Assembly (NCBI GenBank): GCA_903813345.2
Contig: CAIIXF020000006.1
Location: forward strand, 33,517,524-33,581,523
Source: Owenia fusiformis
Lineage: Eukaryota; Annelida; Polychaeta; Sabellida; Oweniidae
Direction of reading: 5' to 3'
DNA: 64,000 bases
The notes beneath the pieces are model-generated. The model had not been told where the DNA came from. It ran no database searches and saw only the letters and a list, made by a program, of their open reading frames with translations. Shown piece after piece: positions 22,201-61,700 of the stretch. Each line of letters opens with the position of its first letter. Within the stretch, counting starts at the first letter, position 1. The translations under genes and the position numbers were made by a program.

Positions 22201-25200
22201 AAATCTCACTACTGAAAAGGGTAGAAATCCTGAATATAATATGAAATGGACTAATGGGAGTGATGCCAATAATAAAGCGAGGTACGTCACTAATCCCGGA
22301 CACTGTTAAGGAAACAATAGAATTTCCTAATTGGTTCATGTCATTTCCGTGACTTCTCTGAAGATATCTTTTTATATTAAAGTAATAAGCTGTTTCTCAT
22401 AATAGCTAGCATTAGGGATTTCCTAAGGGAGGCATTTAAAGCAGTATGGTTCTCCTTAAGGAGACAGTGGGGCAAATGGGATAAATAGGAATCTCCTTTT
22501 GGAGACAATGATGTATATTTCAGCCATAATTTTGATGTCGCTATCTATTGAAATGTTTATTTGTGACCTATTTGCTTTCATTTCGACTTTTTTTAGTGTT
22601 CATTCAGTCTCCACCCCTAGAATAGGACGGGAGTGATTTATATAACCTAAGGGCTTATTGCAAAGCTTGCTATTTTCATTTGACCAATTTTGATGATATT
22701 TTACAATTTATGTTTTCAGGAATACACTCGGATACTTTGATCTTCGTGCTAAGTTCTCAGAGACGTACAACATGGAGGATATCCAGCAAACACCTCAACT
22801 CTACAGTCAAACACATATTTATTGTAAGTAGCCTTTCTAGTTCTACCAATTTTCTGTTATTTTCCTCAACAGCTACATATATTTCTATATATATTTCCTT
22901 CTCAAGGCCTAATCTTTCTGAAGAAATGGGAATAGGGGTGGTTTAGGGGTGTTTTTCTTGTGTACATTGGCGCATGAAGGAAGAGGGTATTGCCAGATTT
23001 TTTTATTTGAAACCGAGCCTAGAATTGAAAGCTCTATAGCTAATTAAAGTCAAAGTGTAATAATGACAGAAATGTCAGTCAGTATTTAGTCTCCTAAATC
23101 AAGCATAGAAGATCTCATTTCTCATATTATATTTAATTCTGCACCATGTACAGTTTACCAGGAACCCATACAGTATGTAAATACTTTGAAGAATAAATGC
23201 AAAATGTTTTAAGTCAAAGTCAAGCTAATTTTTATTTATTTTAAAAACACATTTTTTCTTGTTATTTTTTTTATTATTGGGAATGAACCAGAGAGGGTCT
23301 AAATTTTATTTTCTGGGGGCATGCCCCCGATCCCCCTAGATTGCGCAGCATGCTTCACGTGCAGCGCTTCACACAGGACCCATCAATACCCAAAAGTCGC
23401 CCCCTCCCTTGGCAAATCCTTCTGATGCCCCTGTTGTATCTAGCACTTTGTTAAGAGTTTTGACAGTTAGTGCTTTATATGATTTGAACACCATTTCCTT
23501 GTTCCTTGTTGTAAAAATCATTAATATAATGATTTGTGAAATCCATCTTATCATTTATAAAAAGTATAATTTCAAAAATATATTGGTTTCACAGAGTTGA
23601 ATTGTTAAGAACTTTCTCTGAGCATAAGAGTCCACTTGGTAACACTCTTTTAAAGCAGCAAAATCAAACCATTAGAAAGGGTGGAAAGAACACCTGTCTC
23701 TAAATTAAAAAAATATATATTAGGACATACATTTTTTCTGAAAAAAGCTAAATAACAAACACCAATACAAATAGATTACATTGTATACAGTATACTTCAA
23801 ACTTCACATGCCTTATTTTCACACTGATTTAACAACTTCTCTCTGTCACTTGCTAATCACTCTACGCCATGACTATAACAAATAAGTGCTGTATTGTTGA
23901 TGTTATTTTGTCTTGTCCTATATACTGGGTGTATGTGTTAGTGGGCAGGTGTCCTACATACTGGGTGTGCATGTATGTGTTAGTGGGCAGGTGTCCTATA
24001 TACTGGGTGTATGTGTTAGTGGGCAGGTGTCCTATATACTGGGTGTGCATGTATGTGTTAGTGGGCAGGTGTCCTATATACTGGGTGTGCATGTATGTGT
24101 TAGTGGGCAGGTGTCCTATATACTGGGTGTGCATGTATGTGTTAGTGGGCAGGTGTCCTATATACTGGGTGTGCATGTATGTGTTAGTGGGCAGGTGTCC
24201 TATATACTGGGTGTGCATGTATGTGTTAGTGGGCAGGTGTCCTATATGCTGGGTGTGCATGTATGTGTTAGTGGGCAGGTGTCCTATATACTGGGTGTAT
24301 GTGTTAGTGGGCAGGTGTCCTATATACTGGGTGTGCATGTATGTGTTAGTGGGCAGGTGTCCTATATACTGGGTGTGCATGTATGTGTTAGTGGGCAGGT
24401 GTCCTATATGCTGGGTGTGCATGTATGTGTTAGTGGGCAGGTGTCCTATATACTGGGTGTATGTGTTAGTGGGCAGGTGTCCTATATACTGGGTGTATGT
24501 GTTAGTGGGCAGGTGTCCTATATACTGGGTGTGCATGTATGTGTTAGTGGGCAGGTGTCCTATATACTGGGTGTATGTGTTAGTGGGCAGGTGTCCTATA
24601 TACTGGGTGTGCATGTATGTGTTAGTGGGCAGGTGTCCTATATACTGGGTGTATGTGTTAGTGGGCAGGTGTCCTATATACTGGGTATATGTGTTAGTGG
24701 GCAGGTGTCCTATATACTGGGTGTGCATGTATGTGTTAGTGGGCAGGTGTCCTATATACTGGGTGTGCATGTATGTGTTAGTGGGCAGGTGTCCTATATA
24801 CTGGGTGTGCATGTATGTGTTAGTGGGCAGGTGTCCTATATACTGGGTGTGCATGTATGTGTTAGTGGGCAGGTGTCCTATATACTGGGTGTATGTGTTA
24901 GTGGGCAGGTGTCCTATATACTGGGTATATGTGTTAGTGGGCAGGTATCCTATATACTGGGTGTGCATGTATGTGTTAGTGGGCAGGTGTCCTATATACT
25001 GGGTGTGCATGTATGTGTTAGTGGGCAGGTGTCCTTTATACTGGGTGTGCATGTATGTGTTAGTGGGCAGGTGCCACATGAATCTTGTCATCAAAATAAT
25101 TATCTGTTCAATTTGAAATTTTTACAGATGTAAGAGGCAACTAGTTCTGATTTTAAGGATGCTTTGAATATTACATGGCTGCCATTTTACTCTTTATAGT

Positions 25201-28200
25201 ACAATATCTCTCACTTTGTGTCTTCAAGCTCAAGAGACATGAAAAATTCAAGAAGCGACCAAATTGATATATCAATATACAACGTACATATAGTCATTTT
25301 TGTTCCATGCTAATATTTTTAGTGCTAAACTGCACTTAGGTTGAGTAAGGGCTCTGACCTTCTCATTTTTCGTATTATCTGTACTTCATATTTCTTCTCT
25401 TGTCATCTTTAGTGTTTGTCTGTTATTTTTCAAAATGTTTGATTTTCAAAATAATTATAAGTAGTGACTTCATGTTAGTTAAATTTACTTTACTCCTTGC
25501 CAATTCTGCTCCTTTCATCTTTATTTAAAATAAACTTGAACATAATGTCATTTTATTCCTGGGGATGTAATTTGTTAGGGATGAAACTTGGCCATTTTAG
25601 TTTTACTCAATATGACAAGAATTTGTTAGGGCAATCTTGTAATTTTTCACTTGATGCACCAACTGTCATAATAATACAAGCAGAGCATCTTTAAGTTGTC
25701 ACGTCGTGCAGCAGACCACACGGGTACTATAGGAATAAAAAGGATCTGGCGCAACTGAAAAGAGAAAAGCAACCATTTTTCATGAATTCTCAATGATTAT
25801 GAGATTGTCTCTAAAGTACTGAATGGTTATTGTACTTATAATATTATATTGTGACATATTTCAGATTTGCTACTTTGTGTAGTCAACATTTTCTTGTTAT
25901 GTTTCTGTTTGATATGCCAAGGTCAGACTCGAAAAGTCTCCATTTAGTTTTGAGATAGTGATCATTACCAAGTCACCATGAAATCATTCTCCCAAAGGAG
26001 ACTTAGGGAGACTTATCTTTTGAAGCAGAGTTCTCTCAGTCACTGGCTATATCTGTACTGCATGGAACAATATTGTTCTAATAGTTCTTTCTCTTGTTTT
26101 TGCGAACCTCCTAATGAGATAAGATAGGCCTGCTTATTAAAGGATGTCCAGTGAGTGATTGTGATCACCCATTAAACAAATATCACATTGTCTCATTTTA
26201 GAATGTAAAATAAAATAATAAACAGTGGAATTACAGTGAAATAGAATAAATAGGCATGAACCATAGACTTTAAACTATATTGAAACATAAGTAAATCATG
26301 TGCATCATTGAGATTTAAAAGAGGAATGCTGTGAAATGAACCTGACTGGTGAGAAATTAATCACAGGGGAGGTTAGTTTAGTATTCAGAGTTTGTGATCA
26401 AGCCACTGATTGATTGTTCCATCTTAACAGCACCTTCAAAATAATTGTTTCTGGTCTACGGAAATCAACCTTTTCTCCTCGGAAAAATTGAAATAATCTA
26501 TGAATTTTGAATATTTTTGGAAATGAGGATTTAAGTTTCATTAATAGATGATGCGATTTTTGTGTCCTCTTATTTGAGATTTCATAATGTTATTTTTATG
26601 ATTGTATTTTTGAAGGGATAGACACACCTGCCCAAAGATGTTATGAAACATTTCTGACCAGTTTTGGCAATTTGAATGATATATTAGTCTCCCTATATTT
26701 TTTCACAATTCCAAGTAAGTGTAAAATTTTCATTTGCAAATTCAGACCTTTGGTCCAAATAGACAATTTTTACTCATTTTTTCAATTAAGTATAACTTGA
26801 GTTTTCAATGGGTGCAAGTTTATATTCAAAATCTCAATTAGGCAAAGTAATCACTGAATATTGTTTTAACAAAGGTTTTCATAAATTATTTGTGAGGTAC
26901 GGAAGCATAGATATTATTATGTAAAATTACCAGGGGGTTTGTTATTTAATTAAGAGCTTAGATATATTGGTTTATGAGAGTTTTGTATACCGGTATGTGG
27001 TCAATGACATGCCAGTAAAAGCAAAACAGACCTCTCTTGTATTAGAAAACCTTGTCTTGTACTGTTTATAGAAGAATAATAGTGTGTACGTTGACTTCAT
27101 GTTTTTTCCAATAATAACATACTCGTATATTTGTATATTTTCATAAAATATGGTGCCCCTTTTTAATGCTGTTTTAGTCAGAGGATTGTATTTACATCTA
27201 TCCTCAGGGTCATGTTATTATATAGTATTTAAAAGCAAGGTCTGCATTTATAATTGTCACCTTTATGTAAGCTTAAGGTAGGCATATTGGAATGAGTAAT
27301 GTGGCTTTAGGAAGCAGCATAAGAAACCATTGTACTGTATACATGTATGATTGACTTTATTGACTTTAGGGAGCGTTTAATTACATAGATCGCTCGGTAC
27401 TGTTATATAAACTATGTAAATCTGGAATTCATCCACAGACTAAAATGTACTAGATTATAGAGAGCATGTACTCTAAATCTAAGTCATGTCTCAAGTTAGA
27501 AAATGGAGTCACGGAAACTTTTGACACTGAAATAGGAGTTTTACAAATTGAACGTGTAAATAAATATAAATATCTCGGTGTTATTCTTACTGATAACAAT
27601 AAATTTGATTTTAACACTGCTTATCCTAAAGAACAATCACGAAAGGCAAAATTCAAAATCAAACAACAGTATAAGAAATTCAATGATGTACCACCGGATG
27701 TTGCTCTTAACCTTTTTGATTCATTAGTCAGTCCAATAAATTACATCATTAATAGATTTAAGCATTCCCTACATATTGCTCAATATATGTCAGCATCAAA
27801 TTTTTACCGTTTTTGAGATATTTGACGTCAAAAAACAGTAAAGATAAGTTATTTTTCAACTTGCTTCAATTTGACCAAATTTCAAATCTGACATTAGTTT
27901 TAGGATTTGACCTTTACTTGACCTTCAGTGACCTTCGAAAGGTCAAAAAAGTTGATTTTTCAAATTGATTTTTGGATGTAAATTTTGGTCAGCTTAATCA
28001 CAAAAGACCTTACTGAGCTCTGAATAAGTAAAATTTTCAAGGTCATCAAACTAGGTCACGTAACTATGCTATCTAAGTTTCTCAAAGTTCAAGACTACAA
28101 ATCCAAATCAATATTTTTGTTTGAAAGTCAGGATATAAATTCCTCTGAAGGTTCCAAACTGTGTGAGCACAGGACCGTGGGTCCTTCATTAAAAATAGCA

Positions 28201-40200: not shown

Positions 40201-43200
40201 ATGACCATTCTTTCTATTGTAGAATTTCATAAATGATCAGTGAACAACTAATTATAATTATCAAGAACAGTATATTTTAAACAATCATCATAAATGATTG
40301 AGATTTACTTATTTATTTTTGATGTTTTTAACACATTCTATTCCTGTTTTTCAGAGTAACAACAATGTTGACCACAGTGCACTCCATAATGTTGAAATAC
40401 AGATGCGTACTATGGTTCAAGTACATTCTGGTCGCAATTTGATTCGCTGGATTGAGGAGCAGTACACAACGATGCGCTCATATTCGTCTATCTCAGTGGC
40501 CAATCATATTGATTTGGACCTTGGGGAACTGCCAGGTAATTACTCGTCACATTTCATGATTTTATCACATGGGCTCCATGGGAATCTTAGTAACCCTGCC
40601 TGGAAATGACATTTTCAAAACTGATATCCGACGAGAAACCATTTTTAGATGCACTTTTTTATCTGGTAGATATTATACACAATATCACTTTGAATTCTGA
40701 ATGAATTTACCTGAAAATCAAGATTATTTCTATGAGCATATAGTCTTTTGCCCAATAATTGCAGATGGCTCCAAGGCCATAATACTTTTCAAAATAGAAA
40801 TAAAACATCTACTTAACATTTCCAGTTGTTGAAGAGGCCCATGATGTTCCAAAAAACCCTATTCTACCCATGGATAGTTTCTTAACCATGGTGAATAAGG
40901 ATAGGTCAAGGCCGGGGTCCCATGTCTCTCCTTTTGACTCTGTTAGTAAGACGCAAGTTGCAATCCAACAGGCCATTAACATTCAATGCGACAAGAGCCA
41001 TCTGGTGGTGTCCTTGAGAAAACCCATTTTACAGGTAAGTGTATTGAACAAGGTTTACAGGACATTGGGTATAGGCAGGAAGAATGCAAAAATGATTTTT
41101 CTAAAACACTAGTATTTTTGTGCAAAAATGCCAATATTTTGACTTATTTCACTGAAACTGGTAATTATGTTCCAGAGTCATATATAATATCTTCCTCGTA
41201 AGCCTCACTGATTTGAATTTGCCTCGCCTATTTGAATTTGCCTCACTTATTTGAATTTGCCTGACCTAATTGAATTTGCCTCACCTAATTGAATTTGCCT
41301 CACCTATTTGAATTTGCCTCACCTAATTGAATTTGCCTCACCTGTTTGAATTTGCCTCACCTATTTGAATTTTCCTCACTTATTTGAATTTGTCTCACCT
41401 ATTTCAATTTGCCTCATTTATTTGAATTTGCCTCGCCTGTTTAAATTTCCCTCACCTATTTGAATTTCCCTCACCTATTTGAATTTGTCTCACCTAACTT
41501 TGAATCCTGGCTATGCTCCTGATCTCTATGGATTGATAATGAGACATGGACTCCAATGTCTCTCTATTTTTCCCCCATTGTTATTATAATTTTGCAATAA
41601 AATGACAACAAATGATGTGGGAATGTCAACGTTTCAATTCAAGCTCTGTTTCTGTAATGTAGGTGTTATGTTTTTCACCCATTCTAATCATAATTTTGCA
41701 ATTACTTGACCACAAACGATGTGGCAATATCAACTTTTCAATTTAATACTCCTTATCTATAATCAAGGTGTGATGTTGTCACCAAGCCCTTTAAGTGACA
41801 AAGCTGCAATTTGTTGACCTCTAGGAATTTATTAGTAGAAAATAAATTCCACTGCTTGCAACTAATTTAGAACAGGAAGAAAATATTTACAAATATATAA
41901 TTACAGTAAATGAATGCTTTTGTTGTTATTATTTGTATTAGCCCTCCTGCTGTCATGCCAAGCTGAATGAATATGGTATTTAACCTCTTGAATCCCAAGC
42001 TCTAAAATTGGTTTGAAACCAGAGGATTTTTCATTTTTCCCAGAGAAATTAGTCGACAGAGATTATTTCTAGACATTTTAAAATGTATTTTGTGTAAATT
42101 GGCTAAAAGTTGTTCAAATAAGAGCAATTTTAGTGTAAACTTATGCGACAGATCTCGTCACTCTGGGTTTCAAGTTCATCTCTAAGGTGACAAGAAATCT
42201 TGTCACTCTGGGTAGTTAAGAGGTTAAACAAATATGTGTATAATAAATGTGGAGTAATGCAGGGTTTTTACAAAGGCAGAAAGATGGTATTTCCTTGGCT
42301 GGAAAAGTCATGAAATTTCATGAATGGATTCAAGTTAGAGTACTGAGAATGGTTAAGGATGAGTCACGATTAACAAGCATTGGATTGTAAAGCACACGTC
42401 TTGATATTTCTCTTATCTTAATTTCCAGATGATTGGGATGGATGCTGGCCACCTGAGTCTCTCTGATACATCATGCATTGCAAGGTCAAATATGACACAC
42501 TTCATACTGGAGTCACCATTCACTGGATGTGGTACTAAGAGGAGAGAAGATGCAGATGGTGTTGCCTATGCCAATTCAGTAGGTTTTTCTTTAAGAAATG
42601 CTAAAGTGAATGACTTGTAGTGATTATTTTAGTATTTTTCAATTACTTTTTTCAGAGCAAATACATAGTATGCAACTTATCAATACATGGGATTTTGAAA
42701 TGTTCAATTTGGAAATTTCATATTTTTTAGTGTAAATTGGAAATTTCATATTTTTTAATGTTCTTAACATGTTATGTCTCATTGTTTTGATGCAACCCTT
42801 TTTAAGTATGTTTCACTTTTCTGTCTTGGTGTTGAAGTTTAATAACGCAATATATTTTTATGTTTAGATCAAGGTGTTACCAATAGATGATGAATACAGT
42901 GGTAGCCATGGCAACCCTCCTGACCACTCAGGAATGGGAATGATGTTCTCTGATGATGCAAACACTCACCTTGATGATGAAGACTTCCAAGTTGGAGAAA
43001 CCATCAAAGTTGCTTTCGAATGCCTCTTTAAATCAGACACAGCGGATGAAAGGAAGACTATTGAACAACCCAAGCATCATATTCATCCCAAATTTGGTCC
43101 TAAATTGCGTGACACTTTGGGATACTCGCTGGAAGTTTTCACTGATAATTTCAACTCACCAGAGAAAAATTTTCCAATCTTGCTGCAAGAGAAAGAAAAG

Positions 43201-46200
43201 ATCAACATTGAGGCTAGTATTAATGCTGATAAGAGGCTACATGTTGTAGTTGACACATGCTGGTTGTCCACTGACCCCTTGGATACAAGCAAGGAACATA
43301 AGGACCATACTCCTCCTTTAATACAATCTGGGTAAGATATCCTCCTTGATACAATCTGAGGTTTATTTCTCAAAAGTTGTGAATAAGTTTTTTCGCAAAG
43401 TTAGTAAATAGTAACTTCATATGCCATTTTTATCATAATCTAGGTACACTTCTGGAGGTCTTGTAAGTCTTCCATAAGTCAATTATACATCAGATATTAT
43501 CAAGTATACAAGAAATTCATTTGGGTCTGTTATTCATTTGAATTAAAATACATTATCAGTGCTTTACCATTGATAATGTTACGAATTATATTCACTCACA
43601 TTTAATAGTTTCATTGGAACTGCAATAAATGTCACATTGTGCATTGTTTGTTCATTTAGGTGCAATAAATGTCACATTGTGCATTGTATGTTCATTTAGG
43701 TGCAATAAATGTCACAGTGTGCATTGTATGTTCATTTAGGTGCTATAAATGTCACATTGTGCATTGTATGTTCATTTAGGTGCAGTAAATGTCACATTGT
43801 GCATTGTATGTTCATTTAGGTGCAGTAAATGTCACATTGTGCATTGTATGTTCATTTAGGTGCAATAAATGTCACATTGTGCATTGTATGTTCATTTAGG
43901 TGCAGTAAATGTCACATTGTGCATTGTATGTTCATTTAGGTGCAATAAATGTCACATTGTGCATTGTATGTTCATTTAGGTGCAATAAATGTCACATTGT
44001 ACATTTTATGTTTATTTAGGTGCAATAAATGTCACATTGTGCATTTTATGTTCATTTAGGTGCAATAAATGTCACATTGTGCATTGTATGCTCATTTAGG
44101 TGCAGTAAATGTCACATTGTGCATTGTATGTTCATTTAGGTGCAGTAAATGTCACATTGTGCATTGTATGTTCATTTAGGTGCAATAAATGTCACATTGT
44201 GCATTGTATGTTCATTTAGGTGCAATAAATGTCACATTGTGCATTTTATGTTCATTTAGGTGCAATAAATGTTACATTGTGCATTTTATGTTCATTTAGG
44301 TGCAATAAATGTCACATTGTGCATTTTATGTTCATTTAGATGCAATAAATGTCACAGTGTGCATTGTATGTTCATTTAGGTTCTATAAATGTCACATTGT
44401 GCATTGTATGTTCATTTAGGTGCAATAAATGTCATATTGTGCATTGTATGTTCATTTAGGTGCTATAAATGTCACATTGTGCATTGTATGTTCATTTAGG
44501 TGCAGTAAATGTCACATTGTGCATTGTATGTTCATTTAGTTGCAATAAATGTCACATTGTGCATTTTATGTTCATTTAGGTGCAATAAATGTCACATTGT
44601 GCATTGTATGTTCATTTAGGTGCAAACTTGAGGAAAGGACAGAGTGGGAGGAAGGCAACAACATAGCAAAGAAAAGATTCAGTTTCCTGTTCTCGAACTA
44701 CTTGCATAATGATGAGAAAACGTACCTGCATTGTGAGCTTGGTGTGTGTTCATCTGATAGAGACTATGCAGCACAGCTTTTCAAAACAGTAAGCCAAATG
44801 TTTGTTAGTGTTCATTGCAAAATGAAGATGCTGGGATATATTTGACTGTGTTCCTTTCTTAAAGATCCTAGTATATGCACTTTCTTTTCAAAATTGATGA
44901 TGCAAGGATATATTTCGGGGTTTTCACTTTTCAGCCTGTGAAGCGCAACTTTATCAAACAGGAAGCAAATTATAGTTTTGTTATCCTTCCTCGGGATACG
45001 TCATGTTTTGATGACAAAATTGAATATTTGCAAATCCCAATTGTCACAATTTGAAGCATTGGTTTAGAAGACAGCATGTGGTGTTCAAAATCTTGTATGT
45101 ATGCAAACACTATGAGGATAATGTAGTATGTCAAGTGTATACCTTATGTTAAATAAAACAATTTGAAATAGTACTATGAACCTCAACACAAGAAAACCAG
45201 TCTTATCACAAAATTGAAAATTTTGCTACAGAGCCAAAAATGTGCCCAATATTAAGAGGAAAATGTGCTAAATTCAAATCTGTCTTTTTGGTCTACATCT
45301 GCATGGAAAAATTGTTAAGTCATAATCTATGACTCATTTTAAAGGCACTTTGTGCTTTTTAAGATTAACAAAAAATTCAAATATTGTAAAGATCTGTGAT
45401 AAGACCCCCTTTCCTGTGCCCTGGCTCATATAAAGCCCTTGTGAAAACTTTGTACCTTTTCAAAATGGCTGGTCAACCTCACAAAAAAACATTCACAGAT
45501 TTTTAATATTTCATTCTTATCTACTTTTATTGGATATGTTCATATTTCTGTTTCAGTGTGTTGCCCCAGATACATACTGTCTGTTTAAGAAGAATGGCAT
45601 TAATGGCTATGGAAATACAGCCAATGGCCACATGAAGATAGTTCACCTTGGACCATTCATGACTGAGACAGCCAGGATAAAGTCTCTCCCTCCAGGTAAG
45701 CCAACCCTTAATTTGCTTCTATTTAAAAGAGATTGCCATCTACACTCTTAAAATGAAAAAAATTCTTTTGAACAGTATCACATCAGGTCTCAAGGTCAGA
45801 GTTTTCTGTTCTGATTTCCATGTTCTTAAAAAAGTCATATTGTAATGTTTATTTTTATAAGGGCTATTATTGTATTTTATGGCATTGCTATTAACATTAC
45901 TAGGAAAGCCGTATGTCGGTCTGTTTGTCCGTCTGTTCGGGCAATAATTCAAATTTCGGTTGACAGATTTGATTCAAATTTATAGGCTTATGCCTTATGG
46001 GGGTAGGACCTCTGCTTGTGAAGTGTGAACGAATTTTTAATATGATCACTTATTAAAATTGCAGCCATTTTCTTAAGAACTATAGTCTTTGATAACTCAA
46101 TTACTAGAGGGTGGATTTGGTTCAAATTTTATGTGCTGTTGCCTGGGTACAAAAGAGCCTTGCTCAAGAAGACAACTTCAAGATGGCCATTAAATACCAT

Positions 46201-47834
46201 TTGATTCAAATTTTACATGCTGATACCTAGGTACATAGGAGCTCAAGAAGGGATTTTCAAGATGGCAGCTAAATTTCAAAATGGCCATCATCAATTTCAA
46301 AGGCATCAACTGAATTTCAAAATTGCTGCCATTTTTCATAAAAAGGCAATCTTTGATAACTCAAATATATATATATATCTTTTATTGACTCTTTAGATGT
46401 CATATCAATGACATATTAGTCACTAAGGTAGAGCAGTTCTTCCCATTGTCGAGTTGAAGAACTGGTATCTTTATCCTGGCTAGAACCATAGACAATTCTA
46501 GCCAGCGCCAGCCTTTTATCGAGTTAGCAGCACTCTAGTAATCGCCGGTACAGGTCAGCAGTCATAGGTCAAAGACAAATCACAAGAAGTGCTGTGACCT
46601 GGGTTTGAACCCAAGACCTCTACTTTTTCAGCCTGAAGCCAGACTTCCTGCTTTTCAGACCAATGCCTTAACCACTAGGCCAACCCGGCGACCACCAGTG
46701 GACAGATTTACTTCAAATTTTATATACTGATGCCTAGAGATAAAGGAGCTCTGCTTGAGAAGAAATTTTCAAGTTTTCATTAAACATGTAATCCTTGATA
46801 ACTGAAGTACCAGTTGACGGATTTGGATTTTTTATATGCTGATGCCTCGGGACATAAGAGCTCTTCTAAAGAATAAATTTTAAAGATGACAGCTGAATTT
46901 CAAAATGGCAACCATTTTTCATAAAAACATAATCTTTAATAACTCAAATACCATAGATTTGGCTCAAATTTTATATGTCAAAACATTTGTAATTTATAAG
47001 CCCTTTGACTTTTTCTGCAATTTTATTTTTCAAAAATGATTTTATTTGTTTTGTTTCAGTTATTGAGACAAAACCAATTCAGCATGCTAACACAGATGAC
47101 AGCAAGATTCCCAATAGGTCATATGCCAAGAATGATGCTACATCTCAAATCAACACAGATATAACAGAGAAGTGCCAGTCAGTGATTATAAATGGAGTTG
47201 ATACGCCAACTGTTATAGGCATCTCTGTAGCAGCTTTCATAATAGGAGTTTTGCTAACTGCAGCACTATGGCTAATTCACACCCATACTGGTGAGTTTAT
47301 TGTTAAAAGATGAAACCATTTCACCTCTGGTTTTATTGTTTGTGGCCATATACCCAAACATTTCCTGCTTTCAGACTTTTGAATTGACTAAAACTATTTG
47401 GGAGAATGAGAGAACCCCATTGTTCTCCCCAACCAAAACAAATATGGACAATCTTCGTTTTAACTTTTGTTTCTGTATGTTTTATGATAAGAATTCACTA
47501 AAAAACCATCAGAAATATCTTACATTTTAAGAAAAATATTTAAACTTAGCACACTCCTTGTTCTATTGGTTTATAGAATAGTATATGGTAAAAAGCCGAA
47601 CCCCAAATACATTGAATTTGCAAAGAAGGTATGTTCTCTGTATTGAATCCGCCCTTGTTTCATCCTTCTTTAAAGCCAGTTTTGGAGGTCATTAAAAATG
47701 TCTATTATTGTTATTACTTTGCAGGTCCAGGGAAGATACAGCAACGTAGAAATCGTGTTCCACGTCGTATACTCCGAACACCAGAGGGCAGCAGTGAATC
47801 CACACCCAACAGTACAACACCAATGCAGACGTAG
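10055..47834 (+). CDS. TGFBR3: betaglycan, TGF-beta type III receptor (13 exons; signal-peptide exon not found)
   Basis: Membrane co-receptor that presents TGF-beta-family ligands and inhibin to signalling receptors. Thirteen exons chain without a phase conflict into about 814 residues, against 851 in the human protein. Order: orphan domain (exons 1-7), with four cysteines at human-equivalent places (VHCHM, TTGCRS, ATCVL, KGCAD); ZP module (end of exon 7 to exon 11), with ten matching cysteines and the near-identical block HFILESPFTGCGT; Ser-Gly sites in an acidic stretch (EYSG, HSGMG) where vertebrate glycosaminoglycans attach; transmembrane segment starting at GVDTPTVIGI; then HTHTG and a Ser/Thr-rich tail of about 40 residues ending PMQT. 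Introns 1 and 2 are each ~12 kb. The intron before exon 10 is largely a splice-site-bearing tandem array. The family assignment rests on co-linear similarity over all exons; orthology in this lineage is inference. Confidence 0.93.
11090..11531. repeat. tandem repeat, 20-bp unit, ~22 copies
   Basis: The consensus is near TGATCTTCCCAAACTACCCC, with variant units (ATCATCCC, CTTCCTCAACTAT). It lies in betaglycan intron 1, about 0.8 kb after the exon. No coding frame. Confidence 0.9.
12901..13062. repeat. 81-bp direct duplication after a poly-C tract
   Basis: Two apparently identical copies (CTTCGCTCTAACTACTGTAG at 12907 and 12988) in direct tandem, each preceded by a run of C. The identity implies a recent duplication. 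The open frame across them is a repeat artefact. Confidence 0.85.
15241..15570. repeat. dispersed repeat, 'TTTTCAAGATGGC' family
   Basis: Degenerate modules of a phrase (a drug-like 'GATTTGGTTCA.ATTTTAT', then 'GGAATTTTCAAGATGGCTGC') that also make up 45905-47000. The family looks like a degraded dispersed repeat. No protein. Confidence 0.55.
15936..16595. mobile_element. DNA element with ~35-bp imperfect terminal inverted repeats
   Basis: The left end AAACCTCAGTCACAATTGC and the right end (inverse of AAACCACAGTCACAATTGC) face each other and continue into CGAACATAC / CGACCATAC. Smaller inverted blocks inside (CACTGTAGGAT / ATCCTACAGTGAC-like) suggest a foldback structure. No open frame. Likely a non-autonomous transposon; its borders are approximate. 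Confidence 0.65.
17403..18638. mobile_element. MITE family 'AGATGCGAG', copy 2, interrupted
   Basis: Perfect 12-bp terminal inverted repeats, AGATGCGAGTAG at 17403 and CTACTCGCATCT at 18627-18638. The body matches copy 1 (5601-6022) except for an 807-bp block absent there (17533-18339). Confidence 0.8.
17533..18339. mobile_element. nested insertion with CAGTGATCTC...GAGAACCCTG ends
   Basis: Flanked by TAACC on both sides (17528-17532 and 18340-18344), a likely 5-bp target duplication. The ends are imperfect inverted repeats (CAGTGATCTCGC against CAGGGTTCTCAC). The interior contains GC-rich and G-run tracts and no long open frame. The site without the insertion is seen in copy 1 of the host MITE. 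Superfamily not determined. Confidence 0.7.
19199..19290. repeat. short imperfect hairpin
   Basis: AATATAGACCAAGAGCAGAGG pairs imperfectly with ACCTGCTCTGAGGTCTATATT across a loop with CCCTAGTCCTAAGGGG. It is similar in size and layout to the other palindromic repeats of the window. Confidence 0.45.
21236..21645. repeat. tandem repeat, ~20/40-bp unit
   Basis: Alternating phrases TCAAGGGCATTCAACCAAT and TCCATTGGTATTCAACCAAT. Because CCAAT and ATTGG occur in the same unit, single strands could fold. The matched open frames on both strands (21306-21503) are produced by the repeat. Confidence 0.85.
22720..22823 (+). CDS. TGFBR3: betaglycan exon 2 (orphan domain)
   Basis: Acceptor TATGTTTTCAG, donor ATT|GTAAGT; phase 1 in, 0 out. 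It encodes 34 full codons including LIFVLSSQRRTTWRIS, matching human VVFLLNSPHPLVWHL. Introns of about 12.4 kb lie on each side. Confidence 0.9.
23319..23410. repeat. possible DNA-transposon remnant
   Basis: GGGGGCATGCCCCCGATCCC followed by CCTAGATTGCGC resembles a GC-rich phrase common at the ends of degraded invertebrate DNA transposons. It is recognised by resemblance only; no target duplication or matching end was found. Confidence 0.3.
23914..25071. repeat. minisatellite, 29 units of 42 or 36 bp
   Basis: Nineteen 42-bp and ten 36-bp units (19x42 + 10x36 = 1158 bp, exactly the array length). The short unit lacks 6 bp of the TGTGCATGTATGTG region. Both lengths are multiples of three, which is why three overlapping frames of 406-415 codons stay open on both strands. 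They have no domains, and the array lies inside betaglycan intron 2, so they are not genes. Single-base variants (TATGCTGGG, TATATGTG) mark individual units. Confidence 0.95.
27373..27816 (+). pseudogene. decayed LINE reverse transcriptase fragment
   Basis: The first segment (27373-27452) reads AFNYIDRSVLLYKLCKSGI, a palm-region phrase of non-LTR retrotransposon reverse transcriptase, and ends in a stop. The next frame (from 27466) carries a TFDTEIGVLQ phrase and then jumps directly to the thumb phrase NKYKYLGVIL. The catalytic YADD region that should lie between is missing. A conserved LFDSLVSPI phrase follows. It is an inactive relic in betaglycan intron 2, in the same orientation as the gene. 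Clade not determined. Confidence 0.75.
28245..28700. repeat. tandem repeat, ~115-bp unit, ~4 diverged copies
   Basis: The unit contains CACAAAAATGACAAAATCAT, TTACCTTGCGGTTACTTT and twice the phrase TACATTGATATTTGA. The copies diverge to the right. No coding frame. Confidence 0.8.
28868..28925. repeat. SINE 3'-tail fragment
   Basis: ATATATATCTTTTATTGA, then CAATGACATATTAGTCACTA matches the left (3') end of the SINE at 46365-46692. The tRNA-like head is absent, so this is a truncated copy. Confidence 0.6.
32461..32540. repeat. (GTCCGTCT)n-bearing dispersed repeat end
   Basis: TTAGCTCACATGGTGAGCTT leads into iterated GTCCGTCTGTCC. Related degenerate phrases occur at 35385-35445 and 45905-45935. 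The overlapping short open frames are not genes. Downstream to ~32940 are irregular GAAA-rich repeats of a TTGAAATGGC kind. Confidence 0.6.
33984..34239 (+). other. candidate alternative betaglycan exon (unproven)
   Basis: A 256-bp block preceded by TTATTTTAG and followed by a strong donor ATA|GTAAGT, open in one frame for all 85 codons with no start codon needed. Read from the acceptor it enters in phase 0 and leaves in phase 1, exactly as betaglycan exon 3 (35175-35352) does, so it could replace that exon but not be added to it without a frameshift. The protein begins VNKSPGEGDIITRFSLS. I do not recognise it. An open stretch this long can occur by chance. Confidence 0.3.
35175..35352 (+). 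CDS. TGFBR3: betaglycan exon 3 (orphan domain)
   Basis: Acceptor GTGCTTCCAG, donor ATAG|GTTAGT; phase 0 in, 1 out. It encodes RINLTVV and LLKWVRLRYDAVTGFSEIK, aligning with human LLNWARKEYGAVTSFTELK. Confidence 0.92.
35815..35926 (+). CDS. TGFBR3: betaglycan exon 4 (orphan domain)
   Basis: Acceptor TTCATTTGTAG, donor GG|GTGAGT; phase 1 in, 2 out. It carries the third and fourth orphan-domain cysteines (ATCVLSN, KGCADPM), matching human PKCNIG and EGCVMS. Confidence 0.9.
39335..39588. repeat. tandem repeat, ~27-bp AT-only unit, ~9 copies
   Basis: The unit is TATTATTAAAATATTGAAAT plus TAATATA. The array ends about 110 bp before the acceptor of exon 5. Confidence 0.85.
39697..39880 (+). CDS. 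TGFBR3: betaglycan exon 5 (orphan domain)
   Basis: Acceptor CTTGTCTTGCAG, donor CTG|GTAAGT; phase 2 in, 0 out. It encodes DLHIIEVAST and HLVLVLKSQHGVQWVLRS, matching human EVHIIELIT and LILILKCKKSVNWVIKS. Confidence 0.95.
40355..40535 (+). CDS. TGFBR3: betaglycan exon 6 (orphan domain)
   Basis: Acceptor CTGTTTTTCAG, donor CAG|GTAATT; phase 0 in, 1 out. It encodes GRNLIRWIEEQYTTMRSYSS and VANHIDLDL, aligning with human GNLVKWALDNGYSPITSY and VANRFHLRL. Confidence 0.93.
40826..41034 (+). CDS. TGFBR3: betaglycan exon 7 (linker and start of ZP module)
   Basis: Acceptor AACATTTCCAG, donor CAG|GTAAGT; phase 1 in, 0 out. A Pro/Ser-containing linker leads into NIQCDKSHLVVSLRK, which contains the first ZP cysteine and matches human SVKCDNEKMIVAVEK. 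Confidence 0.92.
41195..41495. repeat. tandem repeat, 20-bp unit, ~15 copies
   Basis: The unit is near TTTGAATTTGCCTCACCTAT with point variants. It lies in the intron after exon 7. Confidence 0.88.
42429..42578 (+). CDS. TGFBR3: betaglycan exon 8 (ZP-N)
   Basis: Acceptor CTTAATTTCCAG, donor TCA|GTAGGT; phase 0 in, 0 out, 50 codons. It encodes SDTSCIARSNMTHFILESP and FTGCGTKRR, carrying ZP cysteines 2 and 3. This is the most conserved block against vertebrate betaglycan. Confidence 0.95.
42868..43331 (+). CDS. TGFBR3: betaglycan exon 9 (GAG-site linker and ZP-C)
   Basis: Acceptor TTTATGTTTAG, donor GG|GTAAGA; phase 0 in, 2 out. It begins with an acidic, Gly-rich stretch holding DDEYSGSHG and DHSGMG, then ECLFKS (Cys 4) and VVDTCWLS (Cys 5). 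Reading through the donor gives GGG then TAA, so a transcript retaining the intron would stop at once after QSG. Confidence 0.93.
43621..44620. repeat. 25 x 40-bp tandem array carrying the exon-10 acceptor
   Basis: Exactly 25 units without a length change (1000 bp). Each runs TGCAATAAATGTCACATTGT then GCATTGTATGTTCATTTAGG. Every unit contains ATTTAG. The last ATTTAG (44614-44619) is the real acceptor, and the exon starts G|TGCAA just as each unit does. At the hexamer position 16 units have AATAAA, 6 AGTAAA and 3 TATAAA, each followed by GT-rich sequence. Read in the frame arriving from exon 9, any unit stops at its own TAG after 12 codons. Confidence 0.95.
44620..44788 (+). CDS. TGFBR3: betaglycan exon 10 (ZP-C)
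   Basis: The acceptor TTCATTTAG is the last unit of the 40-bp array; donor ACA|GTAAGC; phase 2 in, 0 out. It encodes GCKLEERTEW, AKKRFSFLFSN and LHCELGVCSSD (Cys 6-8), matching human NICPKD, DKKRFSFVF and LQCELTLC. Confidence 0.93.
45557..45695 (+). CDS. TGFBR3: betaglycan exon 11 (end of ZP-C)
   Basis: Acceptor TTCTGTTTCAG, donor CAG|GTAAGC; phase 0 in, 1 out. It starts CVAPDTYCLFKK with the last ZP cysteine pair, matching human CVPPDEAC, and continues into the juxtamembrane linker. Confidence 0.92.
45905..47000. repeat. dispersed repeat, iterated 'TCAAATTTTA..GATGCC' modules
   Basis: About six degenerate modules combining GATTCAAATTTTA, TGCTGATGCCTAGG, TTTTCAAGATGGC and TTTGATAACTCAA, in betaglycan intron 11. 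A SINE interrupts one module at 46365-46692. Confidence 0.65.
46365..46692 (-). mobile_element. tRNA-derived SINE
   Basis: On the minus strand the head reads TTGGCCTAGTGGTTAAGGC (box A TGGCCTAGTGG, 46672-46682) and GGTTCAAACCC (box B, 46602-46612) at tRNA-like spacing, with room for a long variable arm as in Ser or Leu tRNAs. A body of about 230 bp follows, ending in an AT dinucleotide tail at 46365-46378. Another fragment of the same tail lies at 28868-28925. The surrounding module continues across the insertion. Confidence 0.85.
47060..47290 (+). CDS. TGFBR3: betaglycan exon 12 (transmembrane segment)
   Basis: Acceptor TTTTGTTTCAG, donor ACTG|GTGAGT; phase 1 in, 1 out. It encodes a polar linker and then GVDTPTVIGISVAAFIIG and LLTAALWLIHTHTG, nearly the same as the vertebrate betaglycan membrane span (GLDTLTVMGIAFAAFVIG). 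Confidence 0.96.
47725..47834 (+). CDS. TGFBR3: betaglycan last coding exon (cytoplasmic tail)
   Basis: Acceptor TTACTTTGCAG; phase 1 in; ends at TAG 47832-47834. The tail is basic (RRNRVPRRILR), then Ser/Thr-rich (EGSSESTPNSTTPMQT), like the vertebrate tail. The final residues MQT lack the Ser/Thr at position -2 of the vertebrate STA PDZ-binding end. Confidence 0.9.
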
Positions 47835-55231: not shown

Positions 55232-58200
55232 GTAAGTTTTAATAATTGATATCTTTAGTTGTTCCAAATACATGCACAGAATTCTAATTATGTAACATCT
55301 AAAAAGCAACAAGGGGAAAGGAACTAAAATAGAGGCCATTAAATTAACAATATTGATTCAGCAATATGAAGATAGTATGCACACATGGTATGAGCGGACA
55401 GATCAAATGAATGACCTTGACAATCAGATCAGAGGAACTGAAATGTTATCTGATTATTTACATCAATTCAATAATCATATTACATGATAGATGGCACTCT
55501 AATTGCAGGTATGGTATACCATATGCTGCTCCCCCTGTGGGTGAACTAAGATGGACTGATCCACAACCTCCCAACCCCTGGAACAGTGTGTTGAACTGTT
55601 CCACGCCAGGGGTGGGCTGCCCTCAGACCTGTATGTTGGGAGGAGACTTCTGCCCAACTAAGGTACACTCCCCATCAAAAACTTGGTACTAGAAATCTCA
55701 TTTAGAGCATGTGTTAAGTCTGATTTAAGCCCTGAACCCAGTGCATTGTATGCTGAATCATTCAATTGAAGGTGTTGTTTCCAAATCTTTGCATGACCAC
55801 AATGTATCTTGGGCATGTTGAGTCTTAGACTTAAATTCTTCACACACACTTATCATTTCAAATGTTGCCATTGGTGCCTTTTAATAGGATAACCAATTTG
55901 TGATAACAAATCCTGATACATAGCGAACCTTGTCTTACGAAACCACTCATGTATTTCAGACATCAGAAGACTGCCTCCAACTAAATGTGTTTGCCCCACT
56001 AAAACAGAGCCATCTATTACCAGTGATGGTGTTTATTCATGGTGGGGCATTTTTCTGTGGCATGGGACCATGCAAGGCATTTAATGGTGAAACAATGGTG
56101 AACTCAACTGGTGTTATACTGGTTACCATTAACTACAGACTAGGTATGGTCTTATTTCAGTTACCATTAATTACAGGCTATGGATGGTTTCATTTTAGCT
56201 ACTATTAACTACAAACTTTCTAAGGGACTATGCATTAGAGATGGGCCATTAATGACGTCATGTAATCAGGGGTATTGGAGTTTATGGTATATGGGCCATT
56301 AATGATGTCATAAATTTCAGTTGCACTGGGGTTCATGGTGTATGGGCCATGAATGATGTCATGTATTTCAGTTGCACTGGGGTTCATAGTGTATGGCATC
56401 CTCCTAAGCAGGTGTCCAGAATCTGTACATCCTTCTTCCCCTGCTATAACCAATTTGGAAGCGCCCAGTTTAACTGAATCATATGATCTAATTATGCGCA
56501 ATGGCTTATACACGATTTCTGTCGCAGTGTTGCGACAGCCAATCAGATCGCGAGTTCTTAATCAGGGAAATGGTAACTGCTTATCGCAGGGGGTAAAAAG
56601 AAAGTGATGATCGGAGGATGAGTGTATGGTGAATAAATGATGTCATGTATTTCAGGGGCACTAGGATTCATAATGTATAATGTAATTCAGGGGCACTAAG
56701 ATTCAAAGTTTATGTGGAATTAATGATGTCATGTATTTCAGGGGCATTGGGATTCATTGTGTATGGACAATTAATAATGTCATGTATTTTAGGGGCACTA
56801 GGATTCAAGGTGTATGTGGAATTAATGATGTCATGTTTTTCAGGGCCATAAGGATTCATTATGTATGGACAATTAATGATGTCATGTATTTTAGGGGCAC
56901 TAGGATTTATGGTGTATGGTTCTGGGCTCGGAGCAGCTTCAGGCAACTATGGCCTAAAGGACCAGATCCTTGCCCTAGAATGGGTTCAACACAATATAGC
57001 AAACTTTGGAGGAGATAGATACCAGGTAAAGCTCCTATAAGTTTCTTGTCTATTTATCATAGCATCATAAAATAAAAAAGAAGACATGACCAGGCTCTTT
57101 TTCTCATTATTTTTTTAATCAAATATTTTTTGAAATGAAAAAAAATTGGCATTGATACCATGTGAGACCACGTGATGTTACATTACTTGATTCCAGGTGA
57201 CACTATTTGGCCAGAGTGCAGGAGCCCAGTCAGTGGGTCTACATCTGATGATACCACAGAGTGGATCTCTCTTCCAAAAAGCGGCCATTTTGAGTAATCC
57301 TCTTGGTATCCCAATACAGTCAACTGAAAGTGCCAAGACAATTGCAAATGCTCCTGTTTTCATCCTGAAATGTGAAAACCCAGAAGCACCTGATAAAGTC
57401 ATGCCTTGCCTCAGGAGTAAAACTGCCAAAGAAATTGTTGATGCGCAAATTACATTTGGGGATACTATTGCATTTAGGAGTGCATCATATGTGAGAAAAT
57501 CGCCAAACTATTTCCAGTGGGAAGAGTTATGGACTCCTGTTATTGACAATGATTTGATTCTAGAACAGCCATTGGTAGCCTTCAGAGAAGGGCGGTTTGA
57601 TACGACTAAATCATTGATAATTGGGAATGTAAAAGATGAAGGAAATCTTTTTGTTTATTACGCAATCACTGATAAAATCAATGTCTTGGAATACGAGGCT
57701 GCCATGAAACTAGCATTTCCGAGACACTTTCTTAATGTGAATGAAAAGTACCCCCCAAGTGTAATTAATGATGATAATAGAGAGCAAGTGTCACAAATCA
57801 TCACGGATTATAACTTTATTTGCCCGACTAGAAATGCCACACGCTCGATTGTTTCAATCCAATCAAATATCTATATGTATTTGTTTGACCATGGGGAAAC
57901 TGTAAACCCATCAGATGGATGTGAGCACAAGTCTTGTCATGGTGATGAACTTGAATATACATTTAAGTCTGTAACCTTCAACTCTTATGAGGAAAACGCA
58001 TTATCCTCCACCATGTTAACATATTGGACAAACTTCGCAAAAACTGGAGACCCTAACACGGGATACAATGAGGACTTGAAAAATTTGAATTTATCCAAAT
58101 GGTCAAAATATAACCAGGAAAATAATTGGCCATTTATGCATTTTAAAACTCCAGAGAGTTCACTAGAAACTGATTATGATTCTGTAAAATGTAATTTCTG

Positions 58201-58793: not shown

Positions 58794-61700
58794 CTGGAAA
58801 AGAAATTCCATATTTTAAAATCAAAATATGGAGGAAAAGAGAGAATAACCAAAAAGTATTGTTAATTAAAATATTTAATGTGTATACTATGTACAGTAGC
58901 TACATGTAGTACTGTAGTATACAAGAAACACAATATCATTATCTATTTCATCAACAGGGGTGTCTGAGCCATCATAAAAGAAATACATCACAAGCAATAC
59001 CCACCTTTGGTGACTGGTTGTACAGATAATCTAGCCCTGGTAAATAGGGCTATATTGCTGAGGGGTCCCTTGCTTGCCTTGTGCTCTAAGTGGTAGTGTT
59101 TTAACTCATTCAGTGATATGTATCTCTTCAACATTCGTATATATTTTACATCTACCATGTGCCATCTAGGGTCCTCTTTCTTAGCCGTGCTACATCAAAT
59201 AAAATGAAAGAATTTAAAGCGAATGTGATACTGGAAAAGCCCTGATCCCACTGCCCCACAGGGCCATCTATTACCACTTACCACTTGTATGGTGTTTATT
59301 CATGATGGGGCATTTTTCTGTGGCATGGGACCATGCAAGGCAGTTAACGGTGAAACAATAGTGAACTCAACTGATGTTATACTAGTTACCATTTCCCTGA
59401 TTCAAAGATTTCTTTCCATTTACAAACAAAGCTTTTTTCCATCCACTAACTAAACAAACTTGATAACATGTAGAATTTGGTGTGAAATATATGAGGTGGT
59501 CCCTAAGTACTTACCTATCAAAGTGGACATCTTTCTTATCAAACTGTGTGTGGTCGGGGTATGACTCCTTGACGATCTAGAATGAAACATACATCTTACA
59601 CTCTGAAAATCAATACCTTGGTCTCCATATGGATATGGAACCACTTTTCACCAATTATAGATTTTTTGCACATGAGTAATTTTTTGAACTGAATGCAAAA
59701 ATGTTATTAACTATTTGAAACTGTTTGAACAAGTATTTACTTGTGTATATAAATGTTGCCCTTTGCATTTTTATTATCCTTCTTACTAATTCATATGCTC
59801 AACCAATGATTTATGTATCTTTGATTTCGCATCAAACAGTTGTATGACATGAACAGAGACTGATACAATATCTTACCTCAACAATTCCCGCAATGCCAGG
59901 TGGCTTACAATTACTGTGATAGAAGAATGCTAGCTGACCTACTTTCATTTGGTCACGCATAAAATTCCGCGCCTGAAAGAATTCATAATGAAAATATAAA
60001 TTTTACAATAACAATACAACTTCACAATGGCAATGGCATACTGATTTAAATATTTGAAATGAACAACATAAAATGCGCCACAGGTTCAGTTACTTCATGG
60101 AGGGTATTATTGCTCATTATAGGGCAATGTTATTGTAATTGGATTTAGGGGTCCCTTACTAATTACACTGGACAAAATGTTTCTAAAAGTAGGGGTCATT
60201 GCAACAGCTCCCACTCCGTCAATATGCTTTCAATTTCTGTTTACTTTACATGGAATGAAAGATGAGTATCCACTACTAATGTCCAAGTAAAAATGTATCC
60301 ACAGCAACATGCTGTGTTAAGGCTTTGAAAAGGAGTGGGAACACTTTAATAGTTTAATATACAACCTTTAAATAATTTCTGTATAATTTCATCTCTCTGG
60401 TAAGTACATTTGTAAGTGAAACTACCTTCCTGTGTTCACTTTTAGGGGTTCAATAAACTTAAGGTCAATGGGTCACAGAACTTTGAAAGGTGTTTCACTT
60501 GAGAGATTGTATTGTAAATGTATTACAAAGAGGAGTATGTACATGTAATTCTAAGTGTGCATTCGTTATATACCAAATATCGGACCATCAGCTGAAATAA
60601 TGATTACCCAATTTGCATTTGAATAGATTTTATTGCCCACAGCTGAGAAGTCCGTGAAAGCACCAGCTTCCGAGTGGGGTCGACTTTTGACTCAACAATC
60701 GATTTTATCTGTTTACCTAATCTTTCAAATGAGGTTTATCATTTATAATATCAATAGGCTATCCTGGACCCTGTTGCTTTAATAGCTTTATTGCATGATA
60801 ACTATCTCAAACTAACACCAAATGACAACATGTTCGCTAGAATCTTCATAAAACAGATTATATAATGTTAGTTCACTGCTAGTTGCAATATTTTCTAGCG
60901 AATACACACTAAATGTAAGTCTTGCTTAAAAGACCCTGTACTCCCCCCCCCCCCTTTATCCTTCTCTCTATATCGCCAGGTAAAGAGAGTGAAGGTGACA
61001 CATGTGACAGGGGGGTGGATACAGTCTTTGAGCAAGACTAACTAAATGTGTGTCCATAACTACATACAATATCTATGGTTTGATCTTGACTAACCTGATA
61101 ATTCCTGACCCCATCCCAGCATGCCGTTTGATCTGGTTCCTTTTTGAGGTCTTCAATACCAAACTAAAAACACAAATGTTATTTCAAACAATATTCAATT
61201 CAGTGTCTAAAATAGGGTGTGTATTTTTTCTAAAATGATCACTATTGGTTTACTTTTAGATTCTTATTTTTCCACAAGAAATTGACATGAAGGGAGTAAT
61301 TGCTATGTGCTTGTGGGGATTCTTTTGTTGCTAGAAGTATTCACCGAAAAATATAATATATTGGCATGGAACCATATCACTATATTAAAGTCAATAAAGA
61401 CCCATATTTATTTATAGGGGTAGGGATAATAAATTCAAAGTGTATGGTCTCACACTCACCTTTACATCCACACCCTTTTCCATGCGTGTTTCAGGCTCAG
61501 ATTTCATCAACCAATGAGGGAATACATCATTTGACACAGGAACTTCTTCCAAAGGTTTTTTAGATGATGTCACTTTCTTCAAAGTTTCAGTTGAAACACT
61601 GCCACCAACAGATCCTAAAATGCAATTTCTGAATGTAAATTACATTATCCTATGACAAGTAAGGTTTTGGGTACATAACAGCGGGATATAATGGGGTTAT

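Follow-up and report, generated by a model that had tools for sequence, protein, structure and literature searches.

An annelid gene carries, at one of its intron–exon boundaries, a tandem array in which the 3' splice site has been multiplied. The array lies in the window – the stretch of 64,000 nucleotides of the Owenia fusiformis genome analysed here – where eight exons, running from 40355 to a stop near 47834, join into an open reading frame of 550 aa (all splice sites of this gene were placed from sequence, and the exon numbers are those of the preliminary description of the locus). A domain search of the frame identifies a ZP-N (1e-9) and a ZP-C domain (1.2e-13), its best relatives of solved structure are TGFBR3 chains (7lbg_D, E 6e-24), and the orphan-domain chain 6mzn is matched at 5e-5 over residues 14–83; a single membrane span and a short tail can also be discerned by eye in the translation. 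Since the TGFBR3 chains and the orphan domain come well ahead of uromodulin (0.015), the gene is, on its predicted protein – orphan-domain part, ZP-N and ZP-C, span and tail – a betaglycan (TGFBR3) orthologue, an identity already proposed in the preliminary description and borne out by the match to 7lbg_D.

The array occupies the intron between the two exons for ZP-C, here numbered 9 and 10 (coordinates of all features are collected in the table). At their joint, the 133-position ZP-C profile is divided such that exon 9 covers positions 5–66 and exon 10 positions 94–127. Transcripts reading through the exon 9 donor would, as described earlier, stop at once, at a TAA. The real acceptor had been assigned to the last unit of the array, and our placement agrees; a candidate branch adenine, picked by eye, lies in a TCAC about 25 nt before the exon 10 AG. 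A further exon considered at 44935, between exon 10 and the exon at 45557, was dropped for want of a phase-0 donor by eye, and it is also disfavoured by the direct join of exon 10 to 45557, which extends the TGFBR3 alignment through CVAPDTYCL.

Table. Features of the betaglycan intron 9 region and of the second boundary array, in window coordinates (a slash in a motif marks a splice boundary)
Feature	Position	Strand	Remarks
Exon 9	42868..43331	+	First half of ZP-C; donor TGG/GTAAGA
Truncated dispersed inverted-repeat (MITE-like) element	43354..43637	+	Genome copies align to 43354–43378 and, piecewise, 43384–43637
Tandem array	43621..44620	+	25 units of 40 bp
TGCAA, element-side copy of 5-bp homology	43621..43625	+	In 10 of 12 element copies
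Last array unit	44581..44619	+	Putative acceptor of exon 10, AG at 44618–44619
Exon 10	44620..44788	+	Second half of ZP-C; first exonic base 44620
Purine-rich start of exon 10	44620..44659	+	10 all-purine hexamers; candidate splicing enhancer
TGCAA, exon-side copy of 5-bp homology	44621..44625	+	Inside exon 10
Second, decayed boundary array	56241–56396 and 56640–56919		51-bp units; carboxylesterase gene (PF00135), 12 kb away

Unit by unit, the array comprises exactly 25 copies of 40 bp without a single indel, and the poly(A)-like hexamers within them are AATAAA in 16 units, AGTAAA in six and TATAAA in three, which confirms the counts of the preliminary description. TRF places the repeat at 43621–44625 (period 40, 25.1 copies, 95% matches, 0% indels), that is, with an end 5 bp inside exon 10. 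ATTTAG is present in 25 of 25 units; the base after this acceptor AG is G in 23 of them (A and T once each), and AG/GT joints occur in 23. Such an arrangement is far above chance. Thirteen distinct units are found among the 25 – units 2, 7, 9, 15 and 25 being identical – with a mean pairwise difference of 4.6%, and the whole variation comes down to about 13 substitution events. As these few substitutions and the lack of indels fit a young or homogenised minisatellite, the constant unit length needs no selection: of the two causes suggested earlier, recent homogenisation fits and selection is dispensable.

Multi-unit duplications are the expectation under unequal exchange; higher-order duplications in the array were not significant against shuffles (P 0.45 over offsets 1–17; 0.11 for adjacent units). 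RNA folding likewise revealed nothing beyond shuffled sequences, with z of 0.49 for a single unit, −0.84 for three units and −1.10 for the last units with the exon. In the 498-Mb assembly, a 33-mer of the unit gave, at up to three mismatches, 25 forward matches, all inside the array, and no reverse ones (two control readings: 0 and 0 matches), and the locus – intron, array and exon 10 as query – was found in one copy. The 40-bp unit is thus likely unique to this locus in the assembly, with the proviso that a search of this type may miss repeats. The assembly also yields three matches to PF16915, the erythrocruorin-linker family, which is an annelid one. Within the window, the array is one of 31 merged TRF arrays, which make up 10.7% of its length; another, at 23930–25073 (42-bp units, 28.5 copies), is open over its full length in two plus-strand frames and one minus-strand frame. 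By eye, the open frame at 27454–27816 resembles the terminal part of a reverse transcriptase from a LINE.

The sequence directly upstream of the array has, unlike the unit, dispersed matches in the genome. They define an element that lies in intron 9 and overlaps the first 16–17 bp of unit 1, the match continuing 16 or 17 bp into this unit in three of seven other loci (L004, L005 and L008). The copy at L008, on C7, is 380 bp long and bounded by imperfect inverted repeats (88% over 26 positions); the window's own copy is without its 3' part, the match stopping at position 246 of 380. On the same contig, some 46 kb before the window begins, lies a further copy (C6:33470839–33471248). To compare both sides of the boundary, 12 element copies were used (13 rows were examined, one of them spurious at E=9.8; L032 covers the right side only). 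In eight of the 12, unit positions 1–16 agree at 14 or 15 of the 16 bases, while the remaining four match at 8, 8, 12 and 12, the two at 8 carrying a 1-bp deletion; at unit positions 17–40, by contrast, the 12 copies match at only 5–9 of 24. AATAAA stands at the same place in the element in nine of the 12 copies and TGCAA in 10. By this alignment, the unit is a chimera, the first 16 bp of which – AATAAA included – derive from the broken end of the element; the last 24 bp, ending in ATTTAGG and without a match in the copies examined, are presumably the native end of the intron.

These observations suggest how the array may have been born. An inverted-repeat mobile element, its homology to the dispersed copies being plain, would first have inserted in intron 9. 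Deletion of its 3' part would then have placed TGCAATAAATGTCACA beside the final 24 nt of intron 9, at the breakpoint seen in the alignment; the element-free intron should accordingly have ended in sequence like TTGTGCATTGTATGTTCATTTAG. In such a one-copy ancestor, the TGCAA of the element and its counterpart in the first bases of exon 10 would lie 40 bp apart, and their mispairing, by slippage or unequal exchange, would copy 40 bp. The joint predicted for this event, ATTTAGG-TGCAA-TAAATG, is the joint present in the array consensus. Later expansion would have led to 25 copies. Compared with units 24–25 and their flanks, the modelled duplication matches at 129 of 130 positions; as the model ancestor was assembled from the last unit, only the joint is an independent test. 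As the native boundary is preserved in the rightmost copy, the coding sequence would have come to no harm. Without invoking selection, duplication of this kind explains why the array ends on a splice site and accounts for the acceptor and the poly(A)-like hexamer of every unit – both of which are, under this model, by-products of one tandem duplication.

Arrays of this type have been described in lancelets as mirages: tandem repeats across intron–exon boundaries, with units of 10–160 bp, in the genes for Adh3, the globins BflGb6/BflGb9, troponin C and PGBD5, and, in the available parts of the two sources, without aberrant mRNA and with normal splicing (PMC3087553, PMC3902484). Like the Owenia array, lancelet mirages are, as far as these excerpts go, minisatellite-like repeats that span or coincide with the boundary, with AG/GT signals in many units. 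The betaglycan array has the corresponding marks – minisatellite-size repeats (25 x 40 bp, 95%), a unit spanning the boundary (ATTTAG/G + TGCAA) and an AG in 25 of 25 units – yet it differs in being found in an annelid, in its 25 units and in having just 6 exonic nt per unit. We therefore consider it, with good confidence, a mirage-type minisatellite that arose by tandem duplication across the intron–exon boundary, its last unit most likely still being used.

If so, the last unit must somehow be told from the 24 before it. For the scoring of acceptors, a matrix was built on 49 others in the genome; since 39 of these belong to carboxylesterase paralogues, they are not a general sample. Exon 10 and the exon at 56895 did not contribute their acceptors to the matrix. 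L083, the shown part of which equals that of L081 (the full 761 bases differ), was excluded from the counts, L089, being too short, was not used when exons were compared, and the AGs of L070, L085, L091 and L089 were placed by hand. Under four pseudocount choices, the exon 10 acceptor scores above one of the 49 acceptors and none of the 10 other window acceptors (above eight of 48 in a matrix version with three AGs misplaced and one absent). Of the 24 decoys, 21 equal or exceed its score. With the real acceptor weak and most decoys no weaker, the sequence at the AG cannot decide the site.

What does distinguish the last unit is what follows it. The first 40 nt of exon 10 contain all-purine hexamers in a number approached neither by the 48 other exons compared (at most four) nor by the 11 other window exons (at most three), and no such hexamer follows any decoy; among these 49 exons, the start of exon 10 is the most purine-rich (38 of the 48 others being from carboxylesterase paralogues). 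Together with the downstream donor, and in keeping with known splicing biology, this suggests exon definition by a purine-rich enhancer. The last unit would most likely be kept for splicing by virtue of having the only AG that adjoins the purine-rich exon and its donor, although the purine-rich start may simply encode protein.

The consequences of decoy use can be read from the frame. Splicing of exon 9 into a decoy would add 13 codons (counting the one that spans the joint) and then reach a TAG in 24 of 24 cases – a stop that had been noted before and that is in fact the acceptor TAG of the next unit. Betaglycan would, on this reading of the frame, be truncated inside the ZP module, as already claimed, and more precisely within the ZP-C domain, exon 9 matching profile positions 5–66 of 133. 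The 24 surplus acceptors are probably ignored by the cell; in case of rare decoy use, the RNA with its 13 codons and stop would probably be cleared by nonsense-mediated decay, and the AATAAA hexamers, a heritage of the element, probably go unused.

Could the surplus acceptors nonetheless do something? Decoy exons have both splice sites and promote intron retention. In the available part of PMC12017769, such exons are discussed in connection with intron retention in OGT; the array resembles them in offering surplus intronic splice sites, but consists of putative acceptors only. By analogy, 25 branch-site/AG modules might compete, with the purine-rich start of exon 10 deciding the outcome, so that splicing slows, the intron is retained and expansion or contraction of the array shifts the balance between full-length and truncated or retained RNA – copy number thereby tuning the amount of receptor. 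Both this brake and its tuning by copy number we deem unlikely: the high scores of the decoys speak for it, whereas lancelet mirages are reported, in the excerpts mentioned, to leave splicing undisturbed (PMC3087553, PMC3902484), and selection on copy number would be invisible from one genome.

A functional switch, in which decoy splicing or polyadenylation in the array yields a truncated, soluble betaglycan, was favoured in the preliminary description, where it was suggested that the DNA could encode such a receptor; on the present evidence, it is improbable. The stop after every decoy, the 16 AATAAA hexamers, which by eye are followed by U/G-rich sequence, and the weak real acceptor make it a possible reading, the positive evidence for which is this layout. 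However, AATAAA derives from the dispersed element and is commonplace in the window besides (78 on the plus strand outside the array, 1.24 per kb); truncation would cut the ZP-C fold halfway, an unlikely route to a stable secreted receptor; and spliced decoy products retain downstream junctions and should be targets of nonsense-mediated decay. Nor do the units show significant avoidance of change in their signals: with about 13 events over 40 columns, none in the six columns of ATTTAG has a chance probability of about 0.12. The claim of a DNA-encoded soluble receptor is thus not supported.

Two further readings fare worse. Recursive splicing, with the units as zero-length exons and the intron shortened by 40 nt per step, would draw on the AG/GT joints, but it is very doubtful: 40 nt is very little for an intron, and one of 1.3 kb does not depend on such steps. 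Moreover, the donor regenerated at AG/GT, TGG/GTGCAA, is poor – it scores −0.2, where each of the 10 donors used for comparison lies between 3.09 and 12.14 and 45% of all window GTs do at least as well – and recursive splice sites were rejected on this count. That a dispersed satellite, or an element with tandem repeats of its own, landed beside the exon is hardly credible in spite of a 71% match to another genomic array (L003), given that the latter has a 21-bp unit of different sequence, that the 33-mer was found only in the present array and that, past the breakpoint, none of the 12 element copies resembles unit positions 17–40.

With tandem duplication across the boundary as the preferred account, it can be asked whether the position of the array on an acceptor calls for any explanation. 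When the arrays of the window were rotated past its 12 identified acceptors, a mean of 1.27 overlaps resulted, and the two actually observed are not exceptional (P(>=2) 0.39). Chance may thus suffice. TRF arrays were found at none of the 10 other window acceptors and at none of 40 acceptors sampled elsewhere (40 of 99 carboxylesterase matches, one family); on these counts, the idea that arrays at splice boundaries are widespread in the genome was rejected. The betaglycan case is therefore uncommon, and as a null model the rotation may be too lenient.

The second overlap is a decayed array in a carboxylesterase gene, the units of which comprise about 26 intronic and 25 exonic bp and carry ATTTCAG/GGGCACTAGGATTCA or similar. 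The real exon at 56895 forms its final copy, and eight more such AGs are visible, with four acceptors outscoring the real one in the first matrix version. This array is split by a dispersed element of some 208 bp and high copy number (about 56397–56604; 39 other scored matches, 88–95% identical, from 1680 first-look candidates); it must therefore be older than the insertion, and the flanking carboxylesterase exons still join in frame. Boundary arrays can evidently persist. At the other end of the same intron, the exon end NYRL and the donor are duplicated as well (56122–56217; 38 bp, 2.5 copies), such that both ends of the intron before 56895 are repeated. A partial, diverged copy of a carboxylesterase exon at 59229–59453 is, by eye, probably a piece of a pseudogene.

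Beyond mirages, the closest parallels concern the gain of introns. In the potato RdRp gene, according to the accessible text of PMC4974935, a tandem duplication across the intron 1/exon 2 boundary copied the branch site, pyrimidine tract and 3' splice site. Like the Owenia array, this is a duplication over an intron–exon boundary that includes the 3' splice site; as far as described there, however, it was a single one and gave a new intron that is used, whereas the array runs to 25 copies and has probably produced no new intron. The gain of introns through duplication of AGGT (Rogers 1989 and Hellsten 2011, both cited in the part of PMC4974935 available) offers another likeness, as units with AG/GT joints are formally GT...AG segments; the difference is that the GTGCAA donor is poor and the copied piece mostly intron rather than exon.

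With 25 near-identical acceptors in a gene that needs one, the betaglycan array provides a natural competition test: for 95% of events to use the last unit, the exon context would have to give it an advantage of about 450-fold relative to an average decoy (0.95/0.05 x 24), a figure directly accessible to RNA reads. For Owenia fusiformis, life-cycle transcriptomes have been published (PMC9977687). The origin of mirages is called unclear by the authors of PMC3087553, in the parts of that article available, whereas in Owenia the seeding event is legible in the sequence; in the open-access literature searched, no mirage traced to a mobile element was found. The array has an ordinary but instructive origin. 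It would extend the mirage phenomenon, found described as such in lancelets only, to an annelid and give it a concrete route of birth: a mobile-element fragment and a 5-bp homology over a splice junction.
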